Assembly (NCBI GenBank): GCA_030622545.1 | Contig: JAUXGA010000007.1 | Location: 1 to 64,000, forward strand | Direction: 5' to 3' | Length of the DNA stretch: 64,000 nucleotides | DNA from: a bacterium | GTDB lineage: Bacteria > Electryoneota > RPQS01 > DYHQ01 | Shown: piece after piece, positions 7,056-48,745 of the stretch | Layout: each line of letters opens with the position of its first letter | How positions within the stretch are numbered: the first letter of the stretch is position 1 | Translations under genes and position numbers: made by a program | The notes under the pieces: generated by a model | Databases searched by the model: none | What the model was told of the DNA's origin: nothing | What the model saw: only the letters and a program-made list of their open reading frames with translations

Positions 7056-10000
7056 TTGGAAAGCGGGAGACTACATCGGAGGGTCGTACCGACTCGAACG
7101 ACTCTTGGGCCAAGGGGGAATGGGAGAAGTCTGGCTGGCTCAGAAGGACACGCCGAACGCACCCTTTGTCGCTTTGAAAATCGTTCCCGCGAACCAGTCG
7201 CATGCCGCCCAGCAGCTTCGAAGCGAATACGATGCGCTCAAACAGCTTGTTCATCCGCATCTACCGCGAGTTTACGAACAGGGACAGGTGGACGGCGACG
7301 GCGGAGCATCGTATCTTGCGATGGAATATCTGCAGGGCGAAGAGCTCCATTCAGATATTCTCGCGAACCCGCTTGAAGATATTATTGATGTGATGGTGCA
7401 GCTTTCGCGAGCTCTCGCTTTTCTTCATACGCACCGTATTATTCATGGGGATTTGAAGCCTCAGAATATCGTGGTGTCTCAGCGACAGCCGCTTCATCTG
7501 AAACTCATCGACTTTGGTTTGGCGACTGTTGCGAGCGAAACGAGCGGCAACCAACTGCGAGGGACGGTTCCCTATATAGCGCCGGAGCAGCTCCGAGGAG
7601 AAAAACCGGGCCCGGCTTCCGACCTCTATGCGACAGGTGTGATTGTCTTTCGGCTTCTGACCGGTCGTTTTCCATTTGAAGCGGAATCGGAAGCGCTGAC
7701 CCTGCGCGCCCGGTTGGAGCAGGAAGCTCCGTCGCTTCTGAAATATGCGCCGCGCGTTTCCGTGAGTCTGGCGGATATTGTCGCGCGGCTTCTTCGCCGC
7801 AATCCCGATGAACGACCGGGCAACGCTCGGGAAGTCATTGCACTTATCAACGAAAAATTGGGGCGCGTTTATCCGTACGAAACTCCGCAGAGTCGCGTCG
7901 CATATCTGAACTCATCGGCTTATCATCCATACATAGCGATTCAGGAAAAAATTGATGTCTCGTTCGGCAAGCCTGTGGTCATCACCGCAGAACCGCGCAT
8001 GGGTCTCCGTTCTTTCCTAAACGATACGAAAAATTATTTCGAAAAACGCGGCATTCCCGTACAGCGCTTTTCGGGTGATGAATGGAAGCAAGCGAATCCT
8101 TCGCAGGGAACCGTCTGGGTGGTCGGTCCTTTCGAAGCGATGCCTGCCCAGCTGCCGGAAGCGGCGAGTTTGATTGTCGGCATCGAAACGGAAGAACCGA
8201 ATGATTCGGCGACTTTTCGATTGCCGCACCTTGACATCCGCGACACCGAAGACATGCTTCAGGCCATCTTCGGACAACATCGCTTTCCGAAAGATTTTGT
8301 AAAACATCTGTGGCTAAGAACACTGGGACATGTGGATGCGGCAGACGAAATTCTGCAGGAACTTCTGAATCGCGAACTGATTGATGTCGGAATCGAAGGA
8401 TGGGAATGGTACGGTTCCGAAACGGATTGGCCGGTTCCCGAATCGCTTCTTCGATTGTGGCAGATGCGTTTTCAGAAACTTGATTCGTCACATCGGCGAG
8501 CGCTCGCGTTTCTTGCCTTTGCTTTCAACCATACTCTTGCGAAAGATATCTGGGATAAACTCTGCGACACCTCTTCGGAAGAACAAGCGGTGCTCGCGGA
8601 TTCGCTGCAAAAGCAGGGTTGGATTCATATCGGTGAAACCGTCGCTCTTCGAAGTCCCATCCATACGTCGGCTATTTGCAGCAGTCTTCCGATAATGGAA
8701 GCGCGCGAAATACATGAACGTCTGAGCGAACTTCCTCCGCCCTTGCATGAAGCCATTGCGGAAATGACGCACTATGTTGGCCATCAACTCCTGTCATCCG
8801 CACCGAAGCTGAATCCCGGAGAAGCATTTGCAAAGCTCCGGCAGTCTATCAGACAAGGACAAGCGAAAACGGTGAGTGAGCTTTCCACGGAAGCGATGGA
8901 AATGATACCCAACATTTCCGCCGCATGGAAAGCCGTGCTTCTCCTGCTTTCCGCTGAATCCACCGCGTTAGCGGGTTCGCTGTCTCGAGCACAGGAAGCA
9001 GCGCAACGCGCGGTTGATGTCGCCAGAGAAGCGACGCTGCCCGGTGACGCAGCGGAAGGGCGGCTTGTGCTGGCGCATATCCTCGAGCGACAGGGAGAAT
9101 GGGACGAAGCTGAGAAATATTTAAGCGACTGCTATGAGAAAGCTCCTTTCCTGCCCAAGGATCGCATGATGATTCTGCTGTCAACTTGGGCCTGGATCCG
9201 ATTTCGAAAAGGAGATATTGACGAAGCGAGTCGTCTTGCCGAACAGGCGCTTGCGCAAGGAGGGGAAGCGGCTAAAAAAAATGGGCGGCTTCGGCAGACG
9301 CTTGGTAATTTGGCTTACTACCGGGGGGATTTGGATTCGGCGGCGCGAGAATGGGAAGCCGCATTGGACGACTACGAGAAGCACGACGACGCGCGTGGGA
9401 AATCCGATATCTATAATAATCTGGGTGTCATCGCCGCTCGCTGGGGGAAAGCGCAGCGCGCTCGAGAACACTGGGAAATGTGCAAGAAACTCAGTGAAGA
9501 AACCGGGAATCAAGCTCGTGTGGCGGGGCTTTTAAATAACCTCGCGATTTCAGCATTTGAAGAAGGGGATTTCCGCCTGGCGGAAAAGAATTATGAAGAA
9601 GCTTTGCGGATTTACCGCAGGCTGGACGCTCCGCGCGAGCACATCGAAATCCTGAACAACTTGGGAGAGCTCAGTTTTTACAGGGCGAACTACCCCCGCG
9701 CTCGCGCTTTCTGGAACGAAGCGCTGTCTGACGCGGAAGCTCTTGGCGATGTCGAGGCGCAGATAGAACCGCTGATTTACCTTGGGAAATTATCCTCGGC
9801 TATCGGCGCTTCGGAGGAGAGTCAACGTTTCTTCGAGCAGGCAATTTCAACATCTCGTGAAGCCGGCAATGAACCCGGACTCGCCCGCGCACTTGGAGAA
9901 TTCGCACTTCACCAGATGCTGTTCTCTGATTTAGAAAAAGCAAACCAGCTTTTGGATGAAGCGGATAACTATGTGCAGGACGATACGGATCCGGCGCTGA

Positions 10001-10404
10001 AATTGAATCTCTTCTATGCACGCTCGCAGCTTTTACTTGCGGCTGAAGAAAATGAAAAGGCCGCAGACCTGTACGAATCCGTGAGAACTCTTCCTGAAGC
10101 GACGAGCACATTTGTCGCTCGCGCTCATCTTGGGCTTTTTGCGTTAGCACATGGGAAGACACCTCCGGATGATTCCTGGTTTGCCGATATTCGTGAATTT
10201 CCCGAGTTTTCATGGCGCGCGTCGTGGTATCAAGCGCAGAAATTCCTGACAAATCAGGACCGGAAGTCAATGCTGCGTGAAGTGGAAAAAGCTGCGGCGC
10301 GGTTGCGCATGATTGCGGAGCAACTATCGGAGAAGGAACGCGGGAGCTATTTGCAATCCAGCGATGTCGTCCGCTTTCAGAAGTGGGTAAAGGAAGCTGT
10401 TTAG
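7048..10404 (+). CDS. Ser/Thr protein kinase fused to a degenerate ATPase-like region and TPR array
   Basis: A 1118-residue cytoplasmic protein with no membrane segment. The kinase domain (about 14-275) has the glycine loop GQGGMGEVW (21-29), Lys44, the catalytic loop HGDLKPQN (133-140, HGD in place of HRD), DFG (155-157) and APE. Residues ~300-560 resemble the ATPase part of PknK/MalT-like STAND proteins. The expected P-loop reads AEPRMGLRS and lacks the GxxGxGK[ST] lysine, so this part is probably non-hydrolytic. The C-terminal half is a long run of TPR motifs (for example around ALDDYEKHDDARGKSDIYNN). The ATG overlaps the regulator stop by 8 bp, implying translational coupling. It may phosphorylate or scaffold the adjacent two-component pair; the substrate is unknown. 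Confidence 0.88.
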   Translation: MPDWKAGDYIGGSYRLERLLGQGGMGEVWLAQKDTPNAPFVALKIVPANQSHAAQQLRSEYDALKQLVHPHLPRVYEQGQVDGDGGASYLAMEYLQGEELHSDILANPLEDIIDVMVQLSRALAFLHTHRIIHGDLKPQNIVVSQRQPLHLKLIDFGLATVASETSGNQLRGTVPYIAPEQLRGEKPGPASDLYATGVIVFRLLTGRFPFEAESEALTLRARLEQEAPSLLKYAPRVSVSLADIVARLLRRNPDERPGNAREVIALINEKLGRVYPYETPQSRVAYLNSSAYHPYIAIQEKIDVSFGKPVVITAEPRMGLRSFLNDTKNYFEKRGIPVQRFSGDEWKQANPSQGTVWVVGPFEAMPAQLPEAASLIVGIETEEPNDSATFRLPHLDIRDTEDMLQAIFGQHRFPKDFVKHLWLRTLGHVDAADEILQELLNRELIDVGIEGWEWYGSETDWPVPESLLRLWQMRFQKLDSSHRRALAFLAFAFNHTLAKDIWDKLCDTSSEEQAVLADSLQKQGWIHIGETVALRSPIHTSAICSSLPIMEAREIHERLSELPPPLHEAIAEMTHYVGHQLLSSAPKLNPGEAFAKLRQSIRQGQAKTVSELSTEAMEMIPNISAAWKAVLLLLSAESTALAGSLSRAQEAAQRAVDVAREATLPGDAAEGRLVLAHILERQGEWDEAEKYLSDCYEKAPFLPKDRMMILLSTWAWIRFRKGDIDEASRLAEQALAQGGEAAKKNGRLRQTLGNLAYYRGDLDSAAREWEAALDDYEKHDDARGKSDIYNNLGVIAARWGKAQRAREHWEMCKKLSEETGNQARVAGLLNNLAISAFEEGDFRLAEKNYEEALRIYRRLDAPREHIEILNNLGELSFYRANYPRARAFWNEALSDAEALGDVEAQIEPLIYLGKLSSAIGASEESQRFFEQAISTSREAGNEPGLARALGEFALHQMLFSDLEKANQLLDEADNYVQDDTDPALKLNLFYARSQLLLAAEENEKAADLYESVRTLPEATSTFVARAHLGLFALAHGKTPPDDSWFADIREFPEFSWRASWYQAQKFLTNQDRKSMLREVEKAAARLRMIAEQLSEKERGSYLQSSDVVRFQKWVKEAV

Positions 10405-30100: not shown

Positions 30101-30186
30101 GGAGGACTAGTCCTAATTGGTAAGGCAGCGGTCTTGAAAACCGCCGGGCTTTGCGGCCCTTGGGGGTTCGAATCCCTCGTCCTCCG
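30101..30186 (+). tRNA. tRNA-Ser (anticodon TGA)
   Basis: Acceptor GGAGGAC/GTCCTCC, anticodon stem-loop GCGGT-CTTGAAA-ACCGC giving TGA, a long class II variable arm (CGGGCTTTGCGGCCC) and T-loop GGTTCGAATCC. The 3' CCA is not encoded. It forms the left edge of the restriction-modification pair. Confidence 0.95.
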
Positions 30187-30209
30187 CTAATTGCAATATA
30201 GAAATAGAC

Positions 30210-31796
30210 ATGCATACCGCAAAACAGCTACTTACAATTAGAGATGCAAGTAAATGGGCAAGCCGATTTCTCAATAGAGATATTGGCGAATCCAATATTT
30301 CCTATTTGATCCAGTACGGAAAAGTACGGAAACACAATGGTGGTAACGGTACACTTATCGATTTGACCGAGCTGAAAGACTACTACCAATCATACCATGG
30401 TAAAAGGGAAATAAATTGGAAGGAAAAATTAGGCGATGACCTCAATTGGGCACTCTCTTTTGATCACCTAAGAGAGAAGGATACGACCAAGCATGTTCAC
30501 CGCTTGCATCCCTATAAAGGAAAATTTATTCCTCAGCTCGTTGAGTATTTTATTGACTCTCACACAGATGATTTCAAAAAGGAAGTATATTTTAGAAAGG
30601 GAGATGTTATTCTTGATCCCTTTTGCGGTTCGGGCACGATGCTGGTACAAGCTGCTGAAATGGGAATCGATGCAATAGGCGTGGATATTTCACGTTTTAA
30701 TTGCATGATAGCGGAAACAAAATTACTCGATTACAATTTAGTTGCTCTTGAAAAAGAAGTCGAAAAAATAAGGGAAGCAATTGCAAATTACGAGGCCGAC
30801 AGTAAAATCACTTCTTTTGAAAACGATCTATTGCCTCGTATGGCCGATTTTAATAATAGATATTTTCCGAGTCCAGAATTCAAATATAAAATTCAAAGGG
30901 GACAAATAAATGAGAGCCAATACGCGGTAGCAAAAGAAAAGGAATTTTTAAGAATCTACAACGGTCTTGTGAGAAAATACAAAATCGAGCTTAATCATTC
31001 TGCCGGAAGCACTTTCTTGGATAAGTGGTATATCAAAAATGTCCGCAAAGAAATCGATTTTGCGTTTGAACTTGTCAAAAGGATAAAAAATACCAAGAAC
31101 AAAAAGATTTTGGCAGTGATTTTGAGCCGTACAATTCGGTCATGTCGAGCTACGACACATTCGGATTTGGCCACGCTCAAAGAGCCGCAGCTAACTACAT
31201 ACTATTGCTTCAAGCACAAGAAAATTTGCAAACCTTTGTTTTCTATAAAATCTTGGTTTGATCGCTATGCGAGGAATACAGTATATCGGCTAAAATCTTT
31301 TGCACAATTAAAGCAGGATAACCATTTCGCTGTTCTTCCAGCGGACTCGCGAACGGTTGATATTTTTACAGAAATCGAAAAACGAAATAAGAAGTTCCAT
31401 GCGTCATTGAAGAAACAAAAAATCAAAGGGATTTTTACTTCACCCCCGTATGTTGGTCAAATTGATTATCATGAACAACATGCATACGCATATGATCTTT
31501 TTGGATTTAAACGCAAAGATGATTTAGAAATAGGTCCGCTTTTTAAAGGGCAAGGGTTAGAAGCTCGCCGACCCTATGTTCAAGGGATTGTAGACGTGTT
31601 GAACAATTGTAGGCCGTATCTCAAAAAGGATTTTGATATTTTCATTGTTGCAAATGATAAATACAACCTCTATCCAGAGATTGCAGAAATGGCGAATATG
31701 AGAATAGTGAATCAATTTAAGCGTCCAGTATTGAATCGCACCGAACGGGATCGAAATCCATATTCAGAAATTATTTTTCAGCTGAAAAACAAGTAA
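30210..31796 (+). CDS. Type II DNA methyltransferase (amino-methylating, TSPPY type)
   Basis: A 528-residue methyltransferase that would protect host DNA from the adjacent nuclease. The first ~60 residues look like a helix-turn-helix DNA-binding region. Motif I is DPFCGSGTM (from D136) and motif IV is TSPPYVG (S411-Y414), with ~270 residues between them that probably hold target recognition. TSPPY favours N4-cytosine methylation, but N6-adenine is not excluded. There is no Shine-Dalgarno before the ATG, which lies 24 nt after the tRNA end. The gene is clearly more A/T-rich than its neighbours, suggesting transfer. Confidence 0.88.
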   Translation: MHTAKQLLTIRDASKWASRFLNRDIGESNISYLIQYGKVRKHNGGNGTLIDLTELKDYYQSYHGKREINWKEKLGDDLNWALSFDHLREKDTTKHVHRLHPYKGKFIPQLVEYFIDSHTDDFKKEVYFRKGDVILDPFCGSGTMLVQAAEMGIDAIGVDISRFNCMIAETKLLDYNLVALEKEVEKIREAIANYEADSKITSFENDLLPRMADFNNRYFPSPEFKYKIQRGQINESQYAVAKEKEFLRIYNGLVRKYKIELNHSAGSTFLDKWYIKNVRKEIDFAFELVKRIKNTKNKKILAVILSRTIRSCRATTHSDLATLKEPQLTTYYCFKHKKICKPLFSIKSWFDRYARNTVYRLKSFAQLKQDNHFAVLPADSRTVDIFTEIEKRNKKFHASLKKQKIKGIFTSPPYVGQIDYHEQHAYAYDLFGFKRKDDLEIGPLFKGQGLEARRPYVQGIVDVLNNCRPYLKKDFDIFIVANDKYNLYPEIAEMANMRIVNQFKRPVLNRTERDRNPYSEIIFQLKNK

Positions 31797-31800
31797 TCTT

Positions 31801-32610
31801 ATGGCATTAACACAAGATCAACACAACAGAATCAGTGAAGTTGTTAAGAAAATATTACTAAAGCGAATTGATAATTTTCCAGAATTGGGTGCACAAATTC
31901 GCAATGCCCCATTTCATAGTGCCCTTATAGATTGTTTTAGGGATCGGCTTGAGCCGTTAAACATAGAAATACCTTACCTATTTGCCATAGCAAGTTGGTT
32001 GCAAGGGTTAAACACCTCTCTTGGAACAGGATTTGAGAATATTTCTCATATTTTATCGGGCGGCTATAAACGTAGATTTACAGGAGCCTATAACTTGGTC
32101 GTTAAAACTAATCAAGCTTCTCAAATAGATAACATAATACGCGATTTAAAATTAGGCGCTTATTTGCCAGACTTAAATAGAGAGAATAATCTAATCTTTA
32201 ATTATTCAAATACGGATCAGGAAACTGAATCTCTGCCGTTTACCGTTGATACCTACATAGAAAGAGAAAATGAAATTATTGCGATAGAAATGAAATCCGT
32301 TAGACCAAATTCTGGAGAAGGACGAGGCGAAAAACAAAAGATTTTGTATGGGAAAGCCGCATTAAAATTGCAAAATCCAGAAAAAGATATTAAGTTCTTT
32401 ATGGGATTCCCTTTTGATCCGACATCAGAAACACCGACGGGACATAACAAAGAAAGATTCTTTAACTATTTAGTCGAGTTCAAAAAGTTTTTTGATCAGG
32501 AAGAGGTTCTAATCGCCGATGAGTTGTGGGACTTCCTTAGTGGCAATCGTGAAACAATGAATGATATATTGGACGTGATAGCAGAAACGGTATCGCAAGT
32601 AAGGAATTGA
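31801..32610 (+). CDS. Type II restriction endonuclease, probably TdeIII-like
   Basis: A 269-residue PD-(D/E)XK nuclease candidate. The core reads VDTYIEREN...IAIEMKSVRPN (about residues 148-170), giving Asp and Glu-X-Lys, followed by SGEGRGEKQKILYGKAAL. This pattern recalls the TdeIII family of type II enzymes, from memory only. It starts 4 nt after the methyltransferase stop and shares its A/T-rich composition, so the two form a restriction-modification operon. The recognition site cannot be read from sequence. Confidence 0.8.
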   Translation: MALTQDQHNRISEVVKKILLKRIDNFPELGAQIRNAPFHSALIDCFRDRLEPLNIEIPYLFAIASWLQGLNTSLGTGFENISHILSGGYKRRFTGAYNLVVKTNQASQIDNIIRDLKLGAYLPDLNRENNLIFNYSNTDQETESLPFTVDTYIERENEIIAIEMKSVRPNSGEGRGEKQKILYGKAALKLQNPEKDIKFFMGFPFDPTSETPTGHNKERFFNYLVEFKKFFDQEEVLIADELWDFLSGNRETMNDILDVIAETVSQVRN

Positions 32611-32646
32611 TTAAGTAAAGAATATCTGGACATAAATTTTTGACAC

Positions 32647-32737
<91 letters not shown>

Positions 32738-36386: not shown

Positions 36387-36410
36387 GTATGAACTTAGCA
36401 AGGGCTGTTT

Positions 36411-36459
36411 GCGGGGCCGACGGTATTCGAACCCCGAACCTACGGATCAAGAGTCCGTT
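36411..36459 (-). pseudogene. Decayed 3' half of a tRNA (Lys, CTT-like)
   Basis: The minus strand carries an intact anticodon arm ACGGA-CTCTTGA-TCCGT, then GTAGGTTCGGGGTTCGAAT and CGGCCCCG, as in the 3' half of tRNA-Lys. The T stem is broken (TACCG in place of TCCCCG) and there is no D arm or 5' acceptor strand upstream. It is probably a remnant attachment site or a truncated tRNA. Confidence 0.65.
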
Positions 36460-36477
36460 ATAATGGCTAATGAATAA

Positions 36478-36513
36478 CTTGGGACGATTCGTGTAGATAT
36501 CTCGAATCCCAAG
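36478..36513 (-). terminator. Hairpin directly after cusA
   Basis: CTTGGGA/TCCCAAG arms with an inner TTCG/CGAA pairing, 14 nt past the cusA stop, followed on the minus strand by TTATTCATT. A plausible terminator, without a strong U-run. Confidence 0.45.
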
Positions 36514-36526
36514 ATGGCGTATATGG

Positions 36527-39500
36527 TTACGGAAGTTCTTCAGGCAATAGTTTTTGATGAAGTAATCCCGGTCGTTTGATGAAGTAGTAAATCGACGGGA
36601 TAATGATGAGGGTCAGAATCGTCGAAGAAATCAATCCTCCAACCATCGGAGCGGCGATACGCCTCATCACTTCGGAACCCGTGCCCGTTCCAATCATGAT
36701 CGGTAAAAGGCCAATCAATGTTGTCGAAACAGTCATCAGTTTCGGTCGAACACGTTCGACCGCGCCTTCCATAATCGCATTCTTGAGGTCTCCCACATTT
36801 CGCAAGCGTTTCTCTCGCTTGAACCGATTGTACGCTTCGTCCAGATAGACGAGCATCACCACACCCGTCTCCGCGGCGAGCCCCCCCAGCGCGATAAATC
36901 CCACAGCGACCGCGACGGATGTATTAAACCCCAGGATATACATCAGCCAGATCCCGCCCACCAGAGCAAACGGCAGCGACAACATGACCACAAGGGATTC
37001 GGTGATGTTTTTGAAATGAAAGAACAGCAAGAAAAAGATGATGAGTATCGTTAAAGGAATAAGGAGTCGCATGCGTTTGGCGACACGTTCCATGTATTCA
37101 TACTGTCCCGACCATACCAGAGAATAGCCTTCCGGAAGCTCGATATTTTGATTTAGAATATCTTTGGCTTGGTGGACATAGGTCCCAACATCCACGCCGC
37201 GGATATCGACATAAATCCACAGTGTTTTGCGCGCGTTCTCTGTCTTAATCATCGGCGGACCGTCCACAATTCTGATAGCCGACACCTGTTCCAAAGGCAC
37301 TGTAAATCCTTGCGGTGTCGGGACACGAACACGCCGGATGCTCTCTAAGTCGTCCCGCTTCTCTCGCGGATAACGAACGTTGATGGGATAACGCGCATTG
37401 CCTTCCACCGTATAGGAGACATTCATGCCACCCAAAGCGGACATGATGACATCCTGCACCTGAGCGATTCGGAGTCCGTAGCGCGCCGCTTTCTCGCGGT
37501 CGATATCGATGTCAATGTACCGTCCCCCCACGACTCGTTCCGAAAACGCGGAGACAGTTCCGGGTACTCCTTTGATGACAGCTTCAATCCGTTCTCCCAG
37601 TCGGGCGAGTTCGTTCAAATCGTCGCCCATGATTTTAATGCCGACCGGCGTTTTGATACCTGTGGACAGCATATCAATTCGCGTGCGAATGGGCATCGTC
37701 CAGGCGTTGGTCAGGCCGGGAATCTGAATCGCAGCGTCGAGCTCCTGAATCAGTTTATCCATTGTCATGCCGTTACGCCATTTTGAGCGGTCCTGGTGCA
37801 AGATAATCGTGGTCTCAATCATGGACAACGGCGCCGGATCGGTGGCGGTTTCCGCGCGTCCGATTTTCCCGAAGACGTGCTTGACTTCCGGAAATGTCTT
37901 GATGATTTTATCGGTTTGCTGCAACAGCTCGCGCGCTTTCATCGGAGAAATTCCCGGAGGAGTTGTCGGCATGTAAAGTAAATCTCCTTCATTCAACGGC
38001 GGCATGAACTCAGAACCCAGCCGACTCCACGGAAAGAACGTTATAAGAAGAACCAGCACGGCAATTCCAATGACGAAGAGCGGGTATTTCAGCGCGCCAC
38101 GAATCACCGGGCGGTAGAGCATGATGAAAAAACGGCTGAGTGGATTTTTGTTTTCAGCTCGAATTTTACCGCGAATGAAATAGAACATCAGCACCGGGAT
38201 AATCGTAATCGCGAGCAGCGCCGATGCCGCCATCGCAAACGTTTTGGTATATGCTAATGGGCTGAAAAGACGACCTTCCTGCGCCTGCAAGCTAAAAACA
38301 GGAAAGAAAGATACCGTTATAATCAGAAGGCTGTAAAAGAGAGCCGGGCCGACTTCTTTAGCGGCGCTAAGAATTATCTCCAGATGGGGTTTCTTGTCTC
38401 GATCCCGTTCGAGATGTTTGTGAGCGTTCTCCACCATCACCACTGAAGCATCCACCATGACTCCAATCGCGATAGCAATCCCGCCAAGGGACATGATGTT
38501 TGCATTAATCCCCAGAACCCTCATGGCGATGAACGCCATCAAGACGCCTGTCGGTAAAACAAGAATTGCGACAAGCGAACTCTGGAAATGCAGAAGGAAA
38601 AGGATGATGACAAGCGCTACGACGAGCATTTCCACAGTGAGTTTCTCTCGGAGCGTCGCTATCGCTCGATGGATAAGAGCCGAGCGATCATACGCCTCGA
38701 CAATCTCAACGCCTTCCGGCAGTCCGCTGCGTAAATCCTGCAATTTTTCTTTGACACGGTCAATGACCGTCAGAGCATTCTCTCCGAAGCGAATGACCGC
38801 AATCCCTCCCACGACTTCTCCCTCGCCGTTCCATTCGGCGATGCCGCGGCGCAGTTCCGGTCCCACCTGCACGTGGGCGACTTGTTTGAGGCGAATCGGT
38901 GTTCCGGAAGGTCCGGGATGGATGGGGATGTTTTCGATTTGGCGAATCCGTTCGGCATCCGATTCTCCCCGGATGTATCCTAATCCCCGGATGAAGAATT
39001 CGGTTTCTCCCATTTCGAGGAGCCGCCCGCCCACATCGTTATTCGACTCCTTGATGGCCATTTTTACATGGCCTATAGGTATCCCAAAGGAAGCTAACGC
39101 ATCCGGATCCACGACAACCTGATACTGCTTAACAAAGCCACCAACCGAAGCGACTTCCGCGATACCCGGAACCGATTGCAATTCGTATTTGATATACCAA
39201 TCCTGGATGGAACGCAACTGGGCCAGGTCGTGTTGCTTCGATTTCAGAGTCCATTCATAAACCCAGCCCAGTCCCGTTGCATCCGGCCCCAGGCGCGGCA
39301 CCACGCCTTGGGGAAGGTCTTTTTGCGCTGTATTCAAATATTCCAAGACGCGACTGCGAGCCCAGTATAAATCCGTACCATCTTCAAAAATCAGATAAAC
39401 CATTCCAAAATTAAAGAATGAATATCCGCGAACATCTTTCACGTAAGGCACCGCCAAAAGCGCGGTGGTTAAGGGATAGATGACCTGATCTTCCACGACC

Positions 39501-39676
39501 TGCGGAGCCTGCCCCGGATAATCCGCGACGATAATGACCTGAACGTCCGACAGATCCGGAATCGCATCAATGGGAATCGTCAGCAGACTGTGCACGCCAA
39601 TGGCGATGATGGCCAACGTCGCTAAAATAACCAACAGGCGATTCCGAACGGAAGCTTCTATGATTTTTTCGATCAT
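36527..39676 (-). CDS. cusA: CusA/CzcA-family heavy-metal RND efflux pump
   Basis: An inner-membrane proton antiporter of 1049 residues that moves metal ions (Cu+/Ag+ or divalent) into the CusB/TolC channel. Twelve helices in the RND arrangement and two large periplasmic loops are visible. Helix 4 has GVMVDASVVMVENAHKHLE. The central pore region includes MPPLNEGDLLYMPTTPPGIS. AAGGAA lies 11 nt before the ATG. It is the third gene of tolC-cusB-cusA. The partner adaptor gene is frame-disrupted, so the pump may not work in this genome as assembled. Cu versus Zn/Co cannot be settled by eye. Confidence 0.92.
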   Translation of the reverse strand: MIEKIIEASVRNRLLVILATLAIIAIGVHSLLTIPIDAIPDLSDVQVIIVADYPGQAPQVVEDQVIYPLTTALLAVPYVKDVRGYSFFNFGMVYLIFEDGTDLYWARSRVLEYLNTAQKDLPQGVVPRLGPDATGLGWVYEWTLKSKQHDLAQLRSIQDWYIKYELQSVPGIAEVASVGGFVKQYQVVVDPDALASFGIPIGHVKMAIKESNNDVGGRLLEMGETEFFIRGLGYIRGESDAERIRQIENIPIHPGPSGTPIRLKQVAHVQVGPELRRGIAEWNGEGEVVGGIAVIRFGENALTVIDRVKEKLQDLRSGLPEGVEIVEAYDRSALIHRAIATLREKLTVEMLVVALVIILFLLHFQSSLVAILVLPTGVLMAFIAMRVLGINANIMSLGGIAIAIGVMVDASVVMVENAHKHLERDRDKKPHLEIILSAAKEVGPALFYSLLIITVSFFPVFSLQAQEGRLFSPLAYTKTFAMAASALLAITIIPVLMFYFIRGKIRAENKNPLSRFFIMLYRPVIRGALKYPLFVIGIAVLVLLITFFPWSRLGSEFMPPLNEGDLLYMPTTPPGISPMKARELLQQTDKIIKTFPEVKHVFGKIGRAETATDPAPLSMIETTIILHQDRSKWRNGMTMDKLIQELDAAIQIPGLTNAWTMPIRTRIDMLSTGIKTPVGIKIMGDDLNELARLGERIEAVIKGVPGTVSAFSERVVGGRYIDIDIDREKAARYGLRIAQVQDVIMSALGGMNVSYTVEGNARYPINVRYPREKRDDLESIRRVRVPTPQGFTVPLEQVSAIRIVDGPPMIKTENARKTLWIYVDIRGVDVGTYVHQAKDILNQNIELPEGYSLVWSGQYEYMERVAKRMRLLIPLTILIIFFLLFFHFKNITESLVVMLSLPFALVGGIWLMYILGFNTSVAVAVGFIALGGLAAETGVVMLVYLDEAYNRFKREKRLRNVGDLKNAIMEGAVERVRPKLMTVSTTLIGLLPIMIGTGTGSEVMRRIAAPMVGGLISSTILTLIIIPSIYYFIKRPGLLHQKLLPEELP

Positions 39677-39710: not shown

Positions 39711-40988
39711 TCATGAGCGTTCATCTTCAATTGGTTTCAAGAACATGCCGCACACAGAGCACTTCTTGTCTTTTTCACTTTCCGGGCGCACGACGGGACA
39801 CATCACACAACCGTAAGGTTCAGAATCCCGCAACACTTCTAATTCGTCCGTGGGCATCGGTTCCAAAAACATATTACAAAGCGGACAGCGCGCGTCATCG
39901 TCGGCAGTGACGATTTCATGGTGCATCGGGCACCAGTAAAGTGAATCGGAGGCGAACACGGCTTCCATCGTCACTCCGGATGCAACGTGCTCATGGGTTG
40001 TTTTTCCTTCCGTCTCTTTCTTCGAGGACTCACATGTGGAATGTTCTTTTTCTAAATGAGCATGTTCACTATGTTCTGTATGCGATTTTTTATCACCCGC
40101 TACGTTGCCATCGGAGAGCAATTTCTGCAATGCTTCCTGAAGCTGCGCCTCGGAATCGAGCAGGAATTGCGCGGAAATAACAACGTTTTCTCCTTGATTC
40201 AAACCGGTTTTCACCTCATAAAGACTGTTGTCTGCCTCAAGTCCCAATCCAACTTCACGAGGCAGGAATTTTCCGTCGCCGAGTGTTAGGAAAACGACAT
40301 CGCGTTTGCCGGAACGTACCACCGCTTCTCGTGGGATTGCGATAACATCTTCGCGCATCCGCGTTTCGATTCGAACCTGTGCATACATATCAGGTTTTAA
40401 TATACCGGCGGAATTACTTAGCGTAATTCTAATCATGGCCGTCCGCGTTTTAGGATTTAGATAAGGATAGATGTAACTCACGTTTCCCTCGAACACTCGC
40501 TCGGGGTTAAAAGCAAGATGCACGGCGGCTTCTTGCCCCGCTTGTATCCAGGGCAATTCATATTCGTAGATTTCCGCCTCAACCCAGACTTTCGATAAAT
40601 CCGCGATGTAAAAAAGATCAGTTCCGGCTTTGCTGTAACCACCTTGCACGGCATTCTTGTGAAGGACAACTCCCGAAGCAGGGCTGTATAACGTCATCAC
40701 ACGCGATACATTACCGGATGATTCCAGCGCATCGATTTGGGCGTCGCTGATATCCCAATATTTCAAACGTTCGCGGGCGGCTTTGAGCAGGTTTTCCGAA
40801 CCCGCACGAACCGGCTGTAGCGAACTGGTCGCTAAAGCGTGATACCCTTTCAGCGCGAGTAAATACTCCTCCTGCGCAGTGACCAACTCGGGACTGTAGA
40901 TGTCCAAGAGTGGTTCTCCTTTGCTGATAGATTGTCCCGTTTCGTTGACGTATAATCTTTCGATCCAGCCCGAAATCTTGGGATTCAT
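39711..40988 (-). pseudogene. cusB: C-terminal part of a split cusB (efflux membrane-fusion protein) with metal-binding tails
   Basis: This frame holds the adaptor from NPKISGWIERLYV onward: lipoyl/hairpin, beta-barrel and membrane-proximal domains, then a His-rich linker and two heavy-metal-binding modules (WCPMHHEIV...CPLCNMF and YGCVMCP...CSVCGMF). It opens at an internal ATG at 40988, exactly where the upstream frame (40711-41454) leaves the family. Compared with CusB relatives, about 6-7 residues are missing at the junction and the frame shifts, consistent with a small deletion or an assembly error. Without the N-terminal piece it would lack its export signal. Confidence 0.75.
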
Positions 40989-41454
40989 CTACGATAACGA
41001 CGCCGTTGGTTTCCACGGTTCGGGACAGGTTCCGGCGTTGAACCGTGGCAGTTCTTACACCGATATTTTGAACGACGGCCGGATCAACGGTAATCACTTT
41101 TCCCTGAACCTCATTCTCATAGACGGGAACTAAATCCATTCCCATCGGAGATTTTCCGGGTTCATCGGAAATATAATTCGGATCCATCGGAGCGCGCCAA
41201 TACAGAATATTTCTTTCACCGCTTGCAGCCGTACTTGCGGTTTTCATCGGCGTCAGGTTCATTCCGCAAATCGGACAGGTTCCCGGTCCTTCCTGAATCA
41301 CGTTGGGATGCATCCCGCAGGTGTACAATTGAGCGGATGTTTCCTCGGATGATGAGTGATGTGAAGTCGGGACTCGTGATGCCTGCCATATATTGACGGC
41401 AACGCTGACCACAAACAACACCATCAGAATAACAATAATATTTCGAGCTTTCAT
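40711..41454 (-). pseudogene. cusB: N-terminal part of a split cusB
   Basis: It carries the membrane anchor (IIVILMVLFVVSVAVNIW), two metal-binding modules (YTCGMHPNVIQEGPGTCPIC and a second one starting WRAPMDPNYISDEPGKSP), and the first strands of the adaptor (TVDPAVVQNIGVRTATVQRR...VETNGVVIVDE). After residue ~158 (near 40980) the frame is nonsense, rich in Arg and Gln, up to the stop at 40711, while the real continuation is in another frame. GGGAGATATTTAAA precedes the ATG, 24 nt after the tolC stop. Confidence 0.75.
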
Positions 41455-41478: not shown

Positions 41479-42729
41479 TTAGATAATCCGCTGTCCGGTC
41501 ATCGCTTCGATTCTCGCCCAGACAAGCTCATGCTCCAGAATTCTCTGCCGCAGCTCCAATTCATAATTCAGCAGCGCCCCTTGGCTGGAGAGCAGCGTCA
41601 AAAAATCCACTTTGCCAACCGGATAACCGGTCAGCGCAGACTGAAGTGTTTGCTCTGCGAGCGGAATAATTCCCTCGCGATACACCGTGATTTGGGCGCG
41701 AGTTCGCTTTGCCTGCGCGAGTAAATCATTCAATTGGAACTCGAGCTCATCTAAGAGCGACTGAAATTCTTCATCCACCTGCCGTTGTTCGATATGTCGC
41801 TGTTCCACTAAATGAGCCTGCCTCTTCTTCCAGTAAAGCGGAATCGCGATTTCAGCTTTAATCGAAAAGAAATCATGCCGCGTCATGCCGCTTGGGTCGT
41901 CGTCTCGCTGCGTGTATTGAGCGCCGACTTTTAAATCCGGATAAAAACTCTTCCGGGCTAAACGAAGGTTGGCTTTTGCATTCTGTTCACGCGCCCGATT
42001 TGCCTGCACTTCAGGATTGAAATCAGAAATCAGCGCATCGAGGGAATCAACGTCCAGTTCGATCCCCCGAAACTCCAATTGCAATGGAACCTCCAACGGC
42101 GCATTCGCCTCTCGACTTAGCAGCGCAGAGAGTCGAGCTTTTAGTGTCTCCTCCATTTGATGGAGTTTCAACAACCGGTCTTCGAACTTTGTTCGTTCTG
42201 TTTGCGCCCGCAGGACATCCTGCCCGAGTCCGTTTCCAACTTCATATTTCGATGTGGTAATCGCAACAAACTGATCCATCAGCGACTGATGGCTCTCCAC
42301 AAGATTGATTGATTTCCGAATAAAAGCCCAATGATAATACGTCTCTTTTATCAGGCGAATGATTCGTGCCTCTTCTCCTTTTAGAAGCGCCGCCTGTTTG
42401 TCTCGCCCACTCTCGGCAAGGTCTCTCTTCAGGCCAAGTTTCCCCGGAAAAGGTAACGTCTGACTCACTGAAATCCACTTTCCGGTCATTGGTTCCTGAT
42501 CGAAAGCAAAAGAATTGACAGGTAAATTCGCTAATCCAAAGCCAAGCATGGGTTCCGGTAGCGCGTTGGATTGAGGGATCTTTTCATCAAAAGCCTCAAC
42601 ACGTGCGATGGCAGCCTTCAGCGACAGGTTTTCCTGAAGCGCTTCATGAATATAACGTTCGAGTACAGGATCACTTCCACCGGCAAGAGCCGTCGCCGCT
42701 ATAATCAGAACGATTAAAAAGGATTTCAT
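41479..42729 (-). CDS. TolC/CusC-family outer-membrane efflux protein
   Basis: A 416-residue protein with a signal peptide (MKSFLIVLIIAATALAGGS) and two repeats of long amphipathic coiled coils separated by short strands, as in TolC trimers that form the outer-membrane exit duct. Conserved features include LPEPMLGFGLANLP and LPFPGKLGLKRDLA. It is the first gene of the metal-efflux operon, about 40 nt downstream of the predicted start of a sigma54 promoter. Confidence 0.85.
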   Translation of the reverse strand: MKSFLIVLIIAATALAGGSDPVLERYIHEALQENLSLKAAIARVEAFDEKIPQSNALPEPMLGFGLANLPVNSFAFDQEPMTGKWISVSQTLPFPGKLGLKRDLAESGRDKQAALLKGEEARIIRLIKETYYHWAFIRKSINLVESHQSLMDQFVAITTSKYEVGNGLGQDVLRAQTERTKFEDRLLKLHQMEETLKARLSALLSREANAPLEVPLQLEFRGIELDVDSLDALISDFNPEVQANRAREQNAKANLRLARKSFYPDLKVGAQYTQRDDDPSGMTRHDFFSIKAEIAIPLYWKKRQAHLVEQRHIEQRQVDEEFQSLLDELEFQLNDLLAQAKRTRAQITVYREGIIPLAEQTLQSALTGYPVGKVDFLTLLSSQGALLNYELELRQRILEHELVWARIEAMTGQRII

Positions 42730-42778
42730 TTGACAACCATGTCTTTCTTTTACTTCAAACCCTACACAGAACGAATTG

Positions 42779-42793
42779 GCAAGTGTCAGGCCA
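42779..42793 (-). promoter_or_regulatory. Sigma54 promoter of the tolC-cusB-cusA operon
   Basis: TGGCCTGACACTTGC on the minus strand: TGGC, G7 and TTGC match the -24/-12 consensus, with GG and GC ten bases apart. Transcription would start near 42768. Its matching activator gene appears lost; only the 3' end remains at 42914-43018. Confidence 0.65.
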
Positions 42794-42799
42794 TAAAAA

Positions 42800-42828
42800 A
42801 ACCACTTGGGATTTTACTCCAAGTGGTT
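42800..42828 (-). terminator. Terminator behind the regulator remnant
   Basis: AACCACTTGG/CCAAGTGGTT stem followed on the minus strand by TTTTTTATGG. It lies between the regulator remnant and the sigma54 promoter. A second hairpin, CCTTTCAATA/TATTGAAAAGG (one bulge), lies at 42886-42909. Confidence 0.75.
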
Positions 42829-42913
42829 GTCTTCTTATGTGTTAAGCTTTCGAGTTCTTAAAATAATCTCGAGCGATTGAAACGACCTTTCAATACCCTA
42901 TTGAAAAGGATTT

Positions 42914-43018
42914 TCAACGCGGTGGCAGCTTGATGTCGTAGTCCTCCATTTTCTTGCGTAGCGTCGGGCGAGTAATTCCGATTAATTTTGACATTCCTAC
43001 GACACAGACAGCCAATAG
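42914..43018 (-). pseudogene. 3' remnant of an NtrC-type sigma54 activator gene (Fis-type HTH only)
   Basis: The minus-strand frame ends GMSKLIGITRPTLRKKMEDY then DIKLPPR and a stop. This is the DNA-recognition helix pair and natural C-terminus of a ZraR/AtoC-type regulator (compare MSREKLRYRIRKFGL in the intact regulator). Upstream of about codon 34 the frame no longer resembles the AAA+ domain, and no such domain is present. It sits directly before the sigma54-driven metal-efflux operon, the normal place for its regulator gene. Confidence 0.65.
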
Positions 43019-43045
43019 ACAATAAGAAACCTCCAGCAACGAAGA

Positions 43046-43072
43046 ACGGGCTCTCTAAAGACGAGAGCCCGT
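43046..43072. terminator. Strong hairpin between the glutamate synthase gene and the regulator remnant
   Basis: A 10-bp perfect stem ACGGGCTCTC/GAGAGCCCGT followed on the plus strand by AATTTTTTTA. The U-run favours the plus strand, where no gene is left; it may also end the minus-strand glutamate synthase operon. Nothing else is recognised between 43073 and 43251. Confidence 0.55.
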
Positions 43073-43251
43073 AATTTTTTTACGAGACAGGTCAAAGTGA
43101 CTTTACAAAGCCAGCCAGAGGACCACGTTGTGACCCAGAACGAGAAAATGGGAATCGGTGCGTGTTACTGTTCGGGTTGACTCTGAATCTACACAGGCAT
43201 CAGGACCGTCTGGCATAGAGTAAGGAAAAAAATCCTAGCGCGCGCATGCTA

Positions 43252-44841
43252 TCAGCTGTTCAGGATTTCCTCAACCTCCGCTTTGTCAACATCCATAATA
43301 TATGGTATTCCACTAACCTCGGCCGCTTCATGAGTCAGAGCCGCAATATCGTTCCTTTCAATATGTTCAAGCGAGAATTTGCGGCTTCCATTCATAAGTT
43401 GTCTTAGGCCTTGTGCAAGTCGCTCGTAGTAGGTGTAAAGCCCAATTGCGCCTGTGGGCAAGTGCTCAAACTCATTTTCCCCAATTTCCCTTCGAAGTTC
43501 GCCCGCAGTAACGAAAATTTCGTCTTTTGAATTACCAAACCGTTCGATGTAAACCGGAATCTGACCTTCCTCAATCGCGCGCCCGATTGTTTTGCCGACC
43601 ATCGCGGCCGCAATCGGACTCCGAGCCATTCCAATCAATTTAACAAATGGCGCGCCCAATGCCAAGCCCTTGAATATCTGGTCTTCGAAAGTGAATCCAC
43701 CAGCGAGGACTAACGCGGGAACCTTCATTCCATTATCCGCAAGGCGTTTAGCATACTTGTAAAGCAGTGAATGCAACTCCACTCCTGGAACCCCCCATTC
43801 ATTCATCATCCGCCAAGGGCTCATACCAGTCCCTCCGCCGGCACCGTCAACAGTTAAAAGGTCAATGCCATACTTGCAAGCGAAGAGAACTGCTCGGGCA
43901 AGGTCCGCCGGTCTGTAAGCTCCGGTCTTCAGGAAGATATATTTCGCGCCAGCTTTACGTAACTCCTCAACACGCTTAGCAAAACTTTCCTCGGTCACCA
44001 TTCCGACTCGGGAATGCCGTTCAAACTCTTTGAACGAACCACGCTCAAAGGCTTTTATCACGGCGGGGTCTGTCGGGTTCGGGAGGACAACGTAGCCGCG
44101 TTCGTAAAGCATCTGGGCTTTTTCAAGGCTCTTGACTTTCACCTCGCCGCCAATATCTTTTGCGCCCTGCCCCCATTTAAGCTCTACGATTTCAACGCCC
44201 AATTTCTCAATGGCATATTCCTGAGTGCCCAGGCGTGTATCCTCGATGTTTGCCTGCACGATGATAGCGCCGTAACCATCACGTTGATAATCTTGAAAGA
44301 GTTTCACTCGGCGCTTAAGGTCAACCGTGTCAAGTACACGACCGTTCTTGATGACCGACTCCGGGTCCATACCGACAACATTCTCGCCAATGGTTAGTCC
44401 TGTACCGGCAAGCGCCGACCCAATTGCCAACCCTTCCCAGTTGTTCTTGGCAATGTCCGTCGAACCAATGCCGGGGATAATCCAGGGATAGCGGAATTTG
44501 AGACCGCCGTCATGACCGAAACGAACCTCGAGGTTAACATTGGGAAAGATAGCTTTATCACTATCCGCCTCAATGCCGTGAGCACCGACAGCAGTACCCA
44601 TAATATTGAAGTGCGAGTAATCGATAGGGTAATCTTTTTCGCTTGCCGTAGTAATAACTCCAAACGGCTGAGGGTAGATTACCTCATGCCCTCTATAGGC
44701 AGATTTGCCGATTTCACACATCCCAATGCAGCCATCGACACAGGTAACACACATCCCTGAAATTGGAGTTATGGAATCATCTGTCCTGTTTTTCGTCAAA
44801 GTAGCTGCAGAACGATTTACCGCCGAGAAGGTTGGCGACAT
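43252..44841 (-). CDS. GltB-like FMN/Fe-S glutamate synthase domain protein
   Basis: A 529-residue protein matching the central FMN-binding domain of glutamate synthase large chain, without the glutamine amidotransferase domain. FMN-domain features are WGQGAKDIGGEVK, LLTVDGAGGGTGMSPW and VLAGGFTFEDQIFKGLALGA. The N-terminus has a CxxCxxxCxxxC cluster (MCVTCVDGCIGMCEIG), likely an extra Fe-S site. It would reduce 2-oxoglutarate plus ammonia to glutamate using electrons from the neighbouring subunits; an ammonia source other than glutamine is implied by the missing amidase part. AGGAGG lies 8 nt before the ATG. Last gene of the redox cluster. Confidence 0.82.
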   Translation of the reverse strand: MSPTFSAVNRSAATLTKNRTDDSITPISGMCVTCVDGCIGMCEIGKSAYRGHEVIYPQPFGVITTASEKDYPIDYSHFNIMGTAVGAHGIEADSDKAIFPNVNLEVRFGHDGGLKFRYPWIIPGIGSTDIAKNNWEGLAIGSALAGTGLTIGENVVGMDPESVIKNGRVLDTVDLKRRVKLFQDYQRDGYGAIIVQANIEDTRLGTQEYAIEKLGVEIVELKWGQGAKDIGGEVKVKSLEKAQMLYERGYVVLPNPTDPAVIKAFERGSFKEFERHSRVGMVTEESFAKRVEELRKAGAKYIFLKTGAYRPADLARAVLFACKYGIDLLTVDGAGGGTGMSPWRMMNEWGVPGVELHSLLYKYAKRLADNGMKVPALVLAGGFTFEDQIFKGLALGAPFVKLIGMARSPIAAAMVGKTIGRAIEEGQIPVYIERFGNSKDEIFVTAGELRREIGENEFEHLPTGAIGLYTYYERLAQGLRQLMNGSRKFSLEHIERNDIAALTHEAAEVSGIPYIMDVDKAEVEEILNS

Positions 44842-44861
44842 TGTTGGACCTCCTTAAACCT

Positions 44862-45554
44862 CTATTTTTCCGAATTTTTCTTTCCGGTAATTTCACATGC
44901 TACACAGGGGTCCATGTAGCACATCATGTCATCGAACTCTTCTTTTTCGACGCATGGCGGACTCAAGTTTGCACACGCACCACAAATCGCTTTGTCGGGT
45001 TCGTTGTATGTGCATCGTAGCTGACAGGCCGGACAAACGTAGATGCAACCGCCACACAAACGGCACTGTTCCGATTTGATATCGAATGGTGTGCCAATGC
45101 TGCGGTTCTGTCCACGATTGCGGAATCCGATGGCTTTCGCCATCATCTGTTCCTCGCACATCCTCACACAAAGCCCGCACAGGATGCAGTCCTCATATTC
45201 TTGCCGAAATCGTTGCTGCCGCACGTCGTGGGCTGCCGCAAGGTCTTGAATGGTCTTCGACTGCGGACATGAGGCCAGATGAAGTTCAAGAATCATCTTG
45301 CGCGCTCGAACAACGCGCGAGGACGCCGTGCGCACCTGCAGGCCTTCCTCGGCCAGATAAGTGCAGGATGTGACCAACTTTGCTTTTGAACCTTCTCCAA
45401 TCTCGACCACACAGAGACGACAGGCACCATAGGGTGACAGTCCCTCCATATAGCATAAAGTCGGAATGGGGAATCCCAGGAATTTCGCAGCTTCGAGGAG
45501 TGTTGTCCCTTCCTCGACCATAACCGGAAGACCATTAATCTTCAAATTAATCAT
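44862..45554 (-). CDS. HoxU/NuoG-N-terminal-like iron-sulfur subunit
   Basis: A 230-residue electron-transfer protein. It has a plant-type [2Fe-2S] domain (Cys34, 45, 48, 64), the His/Cys domain of complex I-type subunits (LELHLASCPQ), and two CxxCxxC clusters (CILCGLCVRMC and CRLCGGCIYVC). A Cys-rich C-terminus (CGACA...CYMDPCVAC) could bind another cluster. It would wire electrons from the NuoF module to the glutamate synthase subunit. The ATG overlaps the stop of the NuoF-GltD gene (ATGA). Confidence 0.85.
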   Translation of the reverse strand: MINLKINGLPVMVEEGTTLLEAAKFLGFPIPTLCYMEGLSPYGACRLCVVEIGEGSKAKLVTSCTYLAEEGLQVRTASSRVVRARKMILELHLASCPQSKTIQDLAAAHDVRQQRFRQEYEDCILCGLCVRMCEEQMMAKAIGFRNRGQNRSIGTPFDIKSEQCRLCGGCIYVCPACQLRCTYNEPDKAICGACANLSPPCVEKEEFDDMMCYMDPCVACEITGKKNSEK

Positions 45555-48500
45555 GTTGAGTGTTCCACTGTTGAAGCAGTCTCGTTCTCCTGCTCCGTTA
45601 ACTCTTTCTCTTTCGGTTGAGTGAATTCAAGATCACACCGCAGGCATCTCATTGCTTCACATTTTGCGTCGTCTTCAGGAAGAGCCATCTCCACCTCGAC
45701 GAAACTGCTTGTTCGCTGTTCGATGGGTATATGAGGCGGTTCCGCGCGTCGCAATTGGCTCAACTCTTCCTCGCTTATTTCAAGAGGTTCCACATAATTC
45801 TGTGGCACCTTGGCTCGCTCAGGCTGTCGAAGTTCCTCGCCACGGATGTACCGGTCAATCATCACAGCTGCTTTCTTCCCAGCAGCAATAGCATCCACGA
45901 CTGTATTCGGCCCTGTGACGACATCACCACCGGCGAATACACCGGGACGGCTGCAACTGAGGTGATATTTATCCGCATATAGCGTTCCGTCATCCTCAAT
46001 CTTCAGCTCTGGCTCTCCGGATGGAGAAATAGAATCCACATCCGGTTGCTCACTAATGGCAACAACTAATGTGTCAAGTGGCAGGATGAATTCACTGTTG
46101 GGAATGGGAACTGGTTTTCGGCGACCGCTGTAGTCAATTTCACCCAGTTTGTTGCGAATACATTCAATACCTGTTAAACGGCCTTTATCTGTTAGAATCC
46201 GAATCGGCATCACAAGGGTTTCGAACTTAATCGCTTCTTCGCCTGCCGCATCGATTTCCTCAGAAAAGGCGGGCATTTCTTCACGCGTGCGGCGGTATAG
46301 AAGGGTCACGCTCTGGACATCTTTCTGACGCAGCGCGGTCCGTGCCGCGTCAACGGCTGAATTACCCCCTCCAACCACACCTACCCGACCTTTTGCCAGT
46401 TGTTCGCCGTTGATGTTGTAGGCCTTTAGGAACTCAATCGAGGGGAAAACACCTTCACTCTCTTCCCCTTCAAGACGGAGTCGGCGACCTTTCTGTGCTC
46501 CCACGGCTACGAAGACAGCTTTGAAACCATCTGCGAAGAGCTTTTCAATGGTAACATCTTTCCCCAATTCGTGGTTGCACTTCAGGGTCACGTTCTCATC
46601 GAGAATGGCGTCTATCTCCTTGGTCAATACCTCGCGAGGCAGCCGATAAGCCGGAATGCAACTGAACATCATACCACCGGGCTTGGAATCAGCCTCGAAG
46701 ATAGTAACTTGATACCCCAGTAGCGAGAGATAGTGAGATGCCGTTAATCCAGCTGGGCCTGCTCCGATGACAGCAACTTTGTCCGTCTTTTTCTCCAACG
46801 CTTTCGTCGGCTGGTAAATCGATGGGTCAATTTTGTCGGTGATAAAGCGTTTCAAAGCCCGGATAGCCACAGGACGGGTGCCGGTTTGTCCCAATCGGCA
46901 TCTCTCCTCGCACTTGTGGTCACAAACTCTGGCGCAAATGGAAGGAAATGGGTTCGCCTCACGGATAGCCTTATAGGCATCCTCGTATTCACCCCGCGCG
47001 ATATGAGCGACATAGCGCCATGCTTCCGTGCCAATCGGGCATGTGGATTGACAGGGCGCACCTACTAAATCTTTGCACACACCCGCCCTGCAGCGACCGT
47101 CCACGATATGCTCGATGTACTCTTCGCGGAAGTAGCGCAAGGTTGACAAGACAGGATTGGAAGCGGTCTGTCCTAAACCGCACATCGTCGTATCAGCGAC
47201 CACATGTGCAAGTTCTTCAAGTAAATCAAGTTGTTCTAATGTGCCACGCCCTTCGGATATGTCCTCCAGAATCTCATACATGCGCTGCGTGCCTTTGCGG
47301 CAGGTATAGCACTTGCCGCAGGATTCGTCACGCAGGAAATTCATATAGTATTTAGCGATATCGACCATACAGCTCTCTTCGTCCATCACGATCATGCCGC
47401 CCGATCCCATGATCGAGCCGGCTTCGGCCAAGCTGTCATAATCGATGGACAAGTCGAACTTCTCGGCAGGAATGCAGCCACCCGACGGGCCACCAGTTTG
47501 TACGGCCTTGATAGGGACTTTGCCGATAGAACCACCGCCAATGTCGTAGATGATTTCCCGGATGGTGGTGCCCATTGGAACCTCTACCAAACCCGTATTT
47601 TTAATCTTACCTACCAGGCTGAATATCTTTGTACCGCTGTTGCCGGGAACCCCTACCTTAGCATACTCATCAGCCCCTTTGCTAATGATTACGGGTATGT
47701 TGGATAGGGTTTCAACATTGTTAATGCAGGTTGGACGTCCCCACAAACCCTTTTGAACCGGATAAGGAGGTCTTTGTCTCGGCTCACCCATATGACCTTC
47801 AATGGAGCGGATGAGTGCGGTTTCCTCGCCACATACAAACGCTCCGGCGCCGCGGACAATTTCTATATCGAAATCCAGTCCGGTATTGAGGATGTTTTTC
47901 CCCATAAGACCGAGTTCACGAGCCTGGCGGATAGCAATCAGAGCGTGCTTAATTGCTAACGGATATTCACTGCGCACATAGATGAATCCCTTGGTCGCAC
48001 TGATAGCTATGGCCGCTATGAGCATACCTTCCAGAACGGCATGGGGGTTCCCCTCCAACAGACTCCTGTCCATATAAGCGCCGGGGTCGCCCTCGTCGGC
48101 ATTGCAGACGATGTATTTCTGTCCTGAACCATTTCCTGCAGCCTGGGCGGACTCCCATTTGACGCCAGTTGGGAAACCTGCACCCCCACGCCCTCTCAGA
48201 CCGGACTGCTTGACCTCTTCGACTATCCATTCAGGGTTGATATTCAGCAAAACCTTCCCTAAGGCGTGGTATCCTCCACGCCGGGTATAATCGAAAATCC
48301 TTATTGGGTCTATCTGCTCATTCTTTCCAAGAATCGTCCGTGTCTGTTTTTTGAAAAACGGGATGTCATCCTGACAGTGTTGGCATTCGTGATATTCTGA
48401 TTCTCGGTATAATAGCTCTTCGACGACCTGACCCTTCAGTGCAGATTCGATAATGCGGGGAACATCATCCATGCTAAGCCTGGGATATAAATGTTTTCCG

Positions 48501-48745
48501 GGCTCGACCAATATGAAGGGGTCTTGTTCGCAAAAACCTTGACATCCGGTTACTCGCAGCGAAACTTGCTCGTGAAGATTATGCTCCAGCGAATATCTCT
48601 TTATAATTCTTAGGATGTCGTTCGCGCCGCTGGCCTGACCACCGGTTCCGGCACAAACAACGAGACATGGTCTATCTGGCTCAGGTTCTTCAACGATTTG
48701 TCGGCGAAAACTCAAGAACTCTTCGACCGTTGCCAGTCGATACAT
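45551..48745 (-). CDS. NuoF-GltD fusion: NADH-binding FMN subunit joined to an NfnB/GltD-type FAD oxidoreductase
   Basis: A 1064-residue fusion. Residues 1-105 are a thioredoxin-like Fe-S domain. Residues ~135-540 are NuoF: the FMN/NADH motifs GLRGRGGAGFPTG and CNADEGDPGAYMDR, an SLBB part, and the N3-type [4Fe-4S] ligands CGKCYTC...TMCGLG. Residues ~550-1000 are a glutamate-synthase-small-chain-like oxidoreductase with CQSTCPIG...CDHKCEERC, FAD motif VIGAGPAGLTASHYLSLLGY and NAD(P) motif GVVGGGNSAVDAA. In domain 1 the usual CxGTGC reads CAGTGG (Cys31, Gly36), losing one ligand unless nearby Cys27 substitutes. It probably links NADH and NAD(P)H pools to glutamate synthesis. GAGGAG precedes the ATG. 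Confidence 0.9.
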   Translation of the reverse strand: MYRLATVEEFLSFRRQIVEEPEPDRPCLVVCAGTGGQASGANDILRIIKRYSLEHNLHEQVSLRVTGCQGFCEQDPFILVEPGKHLYPRLSMDDVPRIIESALKGQVVEELLYRESEYHECQHCQDDIPFFKKQTRTILGKNEQIDPIRIFDYTRRGGYHALGKVLLNINPEWIVEEVKQSGLRGRGGAGFPTGVKWESAQAAGNGSGQKYIVCNADEGDPGAYMDRSLLEGNPHAVLEGMLIAAIAISATKGFIYVRSEYPLAIKHALIAIRQARELGLMGKNILNTGLDFDIEIVRGAGAFVCGEETALIRSIEGHMGEPRQRPPYPVQKGLWGRPTCINNVETLSNIPVIISKGADEYAKVGVPGNSGTKIFSLVGKIKNTGLVEVPMGTTIREIIYDIGGGSIGKVPIKAVQTGGPSGGCIPAEKFDLSIDYDSLAEAGSIMGSGGMIVMDEESCMVDIAKYYMNFLRDESCGKCYTCRKGTQRMYEILEDISEGRGTLEQLDLLEELAHVVADTTMCGLGQTASNPVLSTLRYFREEYIEHIVDGRCRAGVCKDLVGAPCQSTCPIGTEAWRYVAHIARGEYEDAYKAIREANPFPSICARVCDHKCEERCRLGQTGTRPVAIRALKRFITDKIDPSIYQPTKALEKKTDKVAVIGAGPAGLTASHYLSLLGYQVTIFEADSKPGGMMFSCIPAYRLPREVLTKEIDAILDENVTLKCNHELGKDVTIEKLFADGFKAVFVAVGAQKGRRLRLEGEESEGVFPSIEFLKAYNINGEQLAKGRVGVVGGGNSAVDAARTALRQKDVQSVTLLYRRTREEMPAFSEEIDAAGEEAIKFETLVMPIRILTDKGRLTGIECIRNKLGEIDYSGRRKPVPIPNSEFILPLDTLVVAISEQPDVDSISPSGEPELKIEDDGTLYADKYHLSCSRPGVFAGGDVVTGPNTVVDAIAAGKKAAVMIDRYIRGEELRQPERAKVPQNYVEPLEISEEELSQLRRAEPPHIPIEQRTSSFVEVEMALPEDDAKCEAMRCLRCDLEFTQPKEKELTEQENETASTVEHST

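Follow-up and report, generated by a model that had tools for sequence, protein, structure and literature searches.

The question raised by this locus is what controls a tolC-cusB-cusA metal-efflux operon when the NtrC-type regulator upstream of its sigma54-type promoter is represented by a Fis-type HTH alone. The window, that is the whole stretch of 64,000 nucleotides analysed here, carries the operon on its minus strand, and the features concerned are collected in Table 1. In the original prediction the dedicated activator had decayed and control had perhaps passed to another one, such as that encoded at 5622. We consider it more probable, at about 80%, that the pump genes are preceded by a duplicated enhancer-promoter cassette, which would still be driven in trans by an intact two-component system at another locus of the same genome (C9).

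Table 1. Features of the pump locus and of the regulator gene at 5622, in window positions.
Feature	Position	Strand	Remarks
Sigma54 -24/-12 element TGGCCTGACACTTGC	42793-42779	-	Some 50 nt ahead of the tolC ATG; same letters in the C9 copy
Intrinsic terminator	42828-42800	-	Stem AACCACTTGG/CCAAGTGGTT; T-tract in the minus direction
UAS2 TTGAAAGGTCGTTTCAA	42893-42877	-	83 bp upstream of the -24 element
UAS1 TTGAAAATCCTTTTCAA	42917-42901	-	TTGAAA-N5-TTTCAA; 107 bp upstream of the -24 element
Regulator stub, Fis-type HTH C-terminus VGMSKLIGITRPTLRKKMEDYDIKLPPR and stop	43000-42914	-	Similarity to the C9 regulator stops at about 42981
Duplicated regulatory cassette	42775-42981	-	Last 22 regulator codons, two UAS, terminator, sigma54 promoter
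Second hairpin	43046-43072		Separates the stub from the FMN-glutamate-synthase-like gene; the + strand has the better T-tract
tolC-like outer-membrane efflux protein (OEP)	41479-42729	-	416 aa
cusB N-terminal half, frame 1	40711-41454	-	Reading frame lost beyond about residue 157
cusB C-terminal part, frame 2	39711-40988	-	HlyD_D23 and HMBD
cusA-like heavy-metal RND pump	36527-39676	-	1049 aa, intact
Other sigma54 response regulator	5622-7055	+	Candidate of the original prediction; not favoured as activator

Read along the minus strand toward tolC, the region holds the HTH stub ending in GITRPTLRKKMEDYDIKLPPR and its stop codon, the terminator hairpin, the T-tract and then TGGCCTGACACTTGC, in which the GG at -24 and the GC at -12 are correctly spaced. 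The sigma54 element and the terminator separating it from the stub are both as predicted. As a bare pattern TGGCCTGACACTTGC is proof of nothing, with five TGGCN7TTGC matches in the window against 3.0 expected from shuffles, a frequency near chance, and the context must decide. It stands above chance because of its position, since a -24/-12-like element is likewise placed at C9 and in the clusters of two relatives, L132 (where the -12 box is TTGT) and L135, in each case behind a terminator and with a fixed spacing to a pair of inverted repeats. The reduction of the local regulator to its HTH was also confirmed: the receiver and AAA+ domains are absent, and a tblastn search of 42501-43400 with the regulators of nine relatives gave nothing convincing as frameshifted remains of a longer protein. 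No match was found elsewhere in the genome that could be the source of the stretch 42976-43251. The terminator is ancestrally the regulator's own.

The best 80 CusA relatives from public genomes and 13 genomes of the same order were searched, and several relatives encode an NtrC-type regulator immediately before tolC. The regulators of the stub's clade are those of L132 (genome G009, CusA 74%), L135 (G005), L018 and L019. L132 and L135 show the order kinase, regulator, terminator-like hairpin, -24/-12-like element, tolC, cusB, cusA and YHS protein, and the promoter is located on or just past the terminator T-tract as in the window. The proposed ancestral order of dedicated NtrC-type regulator, terminator, sigma54 promoter and operon is therefore found intact in these two same-order genomes, with the regulator next to the operon. 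A YHS gene is present behind cusA in G012 and G003 as well. In G009 and G005 the regulator ortholog precedes the pump genes, in G003 (L214) it is downstream of them, and in G002 it is on a different contig while the pump promoter (L134) keeps the putative enhancer site (UAS) described below. Judged from this gene order the position of the regulator is mobile, and unlinked control is not unusual in the group because of the arrangement in G002.

The cassette upstream of tolC is identical to G000:C9:127954-128160 at 185 of 207 positions (89%, ungapped, 22 differences), and no further copy was found in the genome. It starts within the HTH codons and ends four bases past the -12 box. The longest identical runs are 35 and 32 bp, one of them reaching up to and into the first arm of the terminator and the other covering the end of the second arm, the T-tract and the -24/-12 element, and the only change in the terminator stem gives T-G in place of a T-A pair. 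Five of the six differences in the shared 22 regulator codons are at third positions, a hint, from differences too few to decide the matter, that the regulator gene in the window may have stayed intact for a while before its loss.

At C9 the regulator gene is intact (G000:C9:126678-128018), and its product has the Response_reg, Sigma54_activat and HTH_8 domains of an NtrC-type protein. It is 66% identical to the regulator of L132, the next best full-length match in the genome reaching 39%, and over its last 22 residues it shares 91% identity with the window stub. It is preceded by an intact kinase (dCache-HAMP-HisKA-HATPase) and followed by the terminator/promoter segment and a YHS/TRASH gene; kinase and regulator share 52–66% identity with their counterparts immediately before tolC-cusB-cusA in L132 and L135. 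C9 thus has promoter and YHS gene without pump genes, and the window has promoter and pump genes without YHS. A gene for RpoN is present in the genome. In G009 and G005 the orthologous parts, from kinase and regulator through UAS pair, terminator and sigma54 promoter to tolC-cusB-cusA and YHS, form one contiguous cluster, whereas here the cluster is divided between two loci, each with a copy of the cassette. The activator predicted to be lost has an intact ortholog followed by the same terminator/promoter segment, and an intact regulator in the same strain, which the original prediction had itself named as evidence against it, was found, but away from the window locus.

Comparison of the upstream regions gave one common inverted repeat, TTGAAA-N5-TTTCAA. 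In a locus set enriched for cusA neighbourhoods, and allowing at most one mismatch at 40–160 bp upstream of TGGYN7TTGH, it occurs together with a sigma54-like site at seven loci (window, C9, L018, L019, L132, L134 and L135), all of them tolC-cusA clusters or the C9 regulator locus, compared with a mean of 0.1 and a maximum of one locus for 40 scrambled palindromes of the same composition. The repeat is paired, some sites having one or two mismatches, and the distances from the -24 element are 107/83 in the window and C9, 108/85 in L132 and 107/84 in L135, so that both predicted window sites fall in the range of about 80–150 bp typical of upstream activator sites. UAS1 overlaps the last sense base and the stop codon of the stub; the same overlap is seen in C9 and L132 and is absent in L135. 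A complete cassette could not be excised without part of the regulator end because UAS1 covers the stop codon, and this overlap may explain the stub. The inner pattern TTTCAAT-N4-TATTGAAAG is perfect genome-wide at the two cassette copies only, the two-mismatch sites that were inspected have no promising sigma54 element close by, and at the other RND loci of the genome no combination of UAS and promoter was found within 1.5-kb flanks. Further -24/-12-like elements are located downstream of cusA clusters at L132:587-601(-) and L018:13279-13293(+), the latter with a two-mismatch UAS 72 bp upstream, which suggests that additional regulon members may exist there.

The simplest history for the two loci would be duplication, or transposition, of the cluster with complementary losses. 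The ancestral metal-response cluster would have comprised a Cache-domain kinase, an NtrC-type regulator, a terminator, a sigma54 promoter, tolC-cusB-cusA and a YHS metal protein gene, and would have been duplicated or split in this lineage. The C9 copy would have retained kinase, regulator, promoter and YHS gene, and the window copy the pump genes and the enhancer-promoter cassette, with the regulator down to its last 22 codons. When phosphorylated, the C9 regulator should bind both cassette copies and activate both operons with RpoN; it is likely to act on both since they share the two UAS and the -24/-12 element. What we infer from the sequences is binding, activation in trans, a metal signal, and the order in which duplication and losses took place. 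It is reasonably likely that two unlinked operons have come under a single two-component system acting through near-identical cassettes, with the stub as a scar.

The handing over of control to the regulator at 5622 is very unlikely. Although only the HTH stub is left at the pump locus and the window encodes no further full sigma54 activator besides that at 5622, the intact ortholog at C9 comes with its own copy of this enhancer and promoter. The 5622 protein is 36–39% identical to the clade of the stub and C9 regulator, its HTH recognition region is AARLLKMSREKLRYRIRKFGL as opposed to KACEALGITRPTLRKKMEDYDI in that clade, and its gene adjoins one for a Ser/Thr kinase with TPR repeats; nothing favours a link between this protein and the pump promoter. 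The two genes overlap and occupy 5622-10404 on the plus strand.

A doubtful but more serious alternative is that the whole locus is a decaying remnant, with the local regulator lost, cusB frameshifted and the promoter a functionless fossil. The predicted order tolC, cusB, cusA is correct, but cusB is split into two frames in this assembly and does not encode an intact CusB-type membrane-fusion protein, which the original prediction did not mention. Compared with L017, L020 and L132 the first frame reaches about ...NGVVIVDES and the second picks up at MNPKISGW, indicating a probable deletion of about 20 nt at about 40985-40992, perhaps by microhomology between two ATGAA stretches. The break does not look like a homopolymer slip and could reflect either a genuine recent mutation or a fault of the assembly; if it is genuine, the pump is probably dead whatever the promoter does. 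The split cusB and the reduction of the regulator to its tail agree with decay. On the other side, the terminator arm, T-tract and -24/-12 element are the best conserved parts of the cassette, both UAS are retained, the break in cusB could come from the assembly, and tolC and cusA are full-length open frames, the CusA-type RND product of the latter scoring 782 bits against ACR_tran and being 58–76% identical to full-length relatives. The cusB break also counts against control in trans from C9, as the pump may be nonfunctional and the promoter preserved merely through the break being recent. An assembly chimera, artificially joining stub and promoter to the pump genes, is highly improbable: the source assembly is incomplete with 20 contigs, but the cassette copies differ at 22 of 207 positions and are therefore not one collapsed repeat, and the promoter-tolC junction matches the order in relatives. 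Least credible of all is that the stub is translated and competes with the complete regulator for the common UAS. An in-frame ATG would give a 26-residue peptide (MSKLIGITRPTLRKKMEDYDIKLPPR), but no convincing ribosome site is seen, the stub lies between two hairpins where a sigma70-type promoter was not found, and a Fis-type HTH of this length would probably neither fold nor form dimers.

Control by the C9 system, the preferred reading, resembles that of ZraSR-ZraP in E. coli, where the sigma54-dependent response regulator ZraR activates zraP (PMC7657598), in having a kinase and an NtrC-type response regulator, sigma54 promoters with upstream sites, and metal-linked targets. The description of the locus as ZraR-like holds as an analogy and no further, as the present system has a dCache sensor in its kinase, upstream sites of the form TTGAAA-N5-TTTCAA, and a YHS protein and an RND metal pump as predicted targets, with regulator and pump operon at separate loci; among the annotated neighbours no ZraP-like target was seen. 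By their genes alone the pump components are like those of the copper/silver efflux system CusCFBA, with an outer-membrane factor, a membrane-fusion protein with a metal-binding domain and a heavy-metal RND pump. The E. coli cus genes are under the control of CusRS, with an OmpR-type regulator, whereas the regulator predicted here is NtrC-type and acts with sigma54. In the literature examined on sigma54-linked metal-stress regulators (PMC7657598, PMC4641369, PMC12316311) neither the UAS TTGAAA-N5-TTTCAA nor a split-cassette arrangement is described.

The mechanism itself is ordinary sigma54 and two-component control, and what is new is the evolutionary arrangement and the regulator-site pair. 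If true, this would be a caught example of a single-cluster regulator turning multi-locus, by the concrete route of copying an enhancer-promoter cassette and keeping one regulator. It also provides a probable regulator-site pair (NtrC-type, TTGAAA-N5-TTTCAA) for metal-efflux clusters of a poorly studied, uncultured lineage, and indicates that a stub beside an operon can wrongly pass for lost regulation while the regulator is intact elsewhere.

Upstream of the stub, at 43252-48745 on the minus strand, lies a NuoF/GltD-like fusion gene followed by an FMN-glutamate-synthase-like gene; the block may be mobile because it is found in only 3 of the 13 genomes of the order (82–83% in G011 and G012). 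Just downstream of cusA, at 36410-36480 on the minus strand, is the 3' part of a tRNA-like sequence with a CTT-type anticodon arm, a damaged T arm and an acceptor strand. No complete tRNA was found there by ARAGORN or Rfam, and no full match in the genome; the fragment may be the trace of a former integration boundary. Two tRNA-Ser genes flank a typical hotspot for insertions at 30101-32737 on the plus strand, where a DNA methylase and a TdeIII-type restriction endonuclease are encoded.
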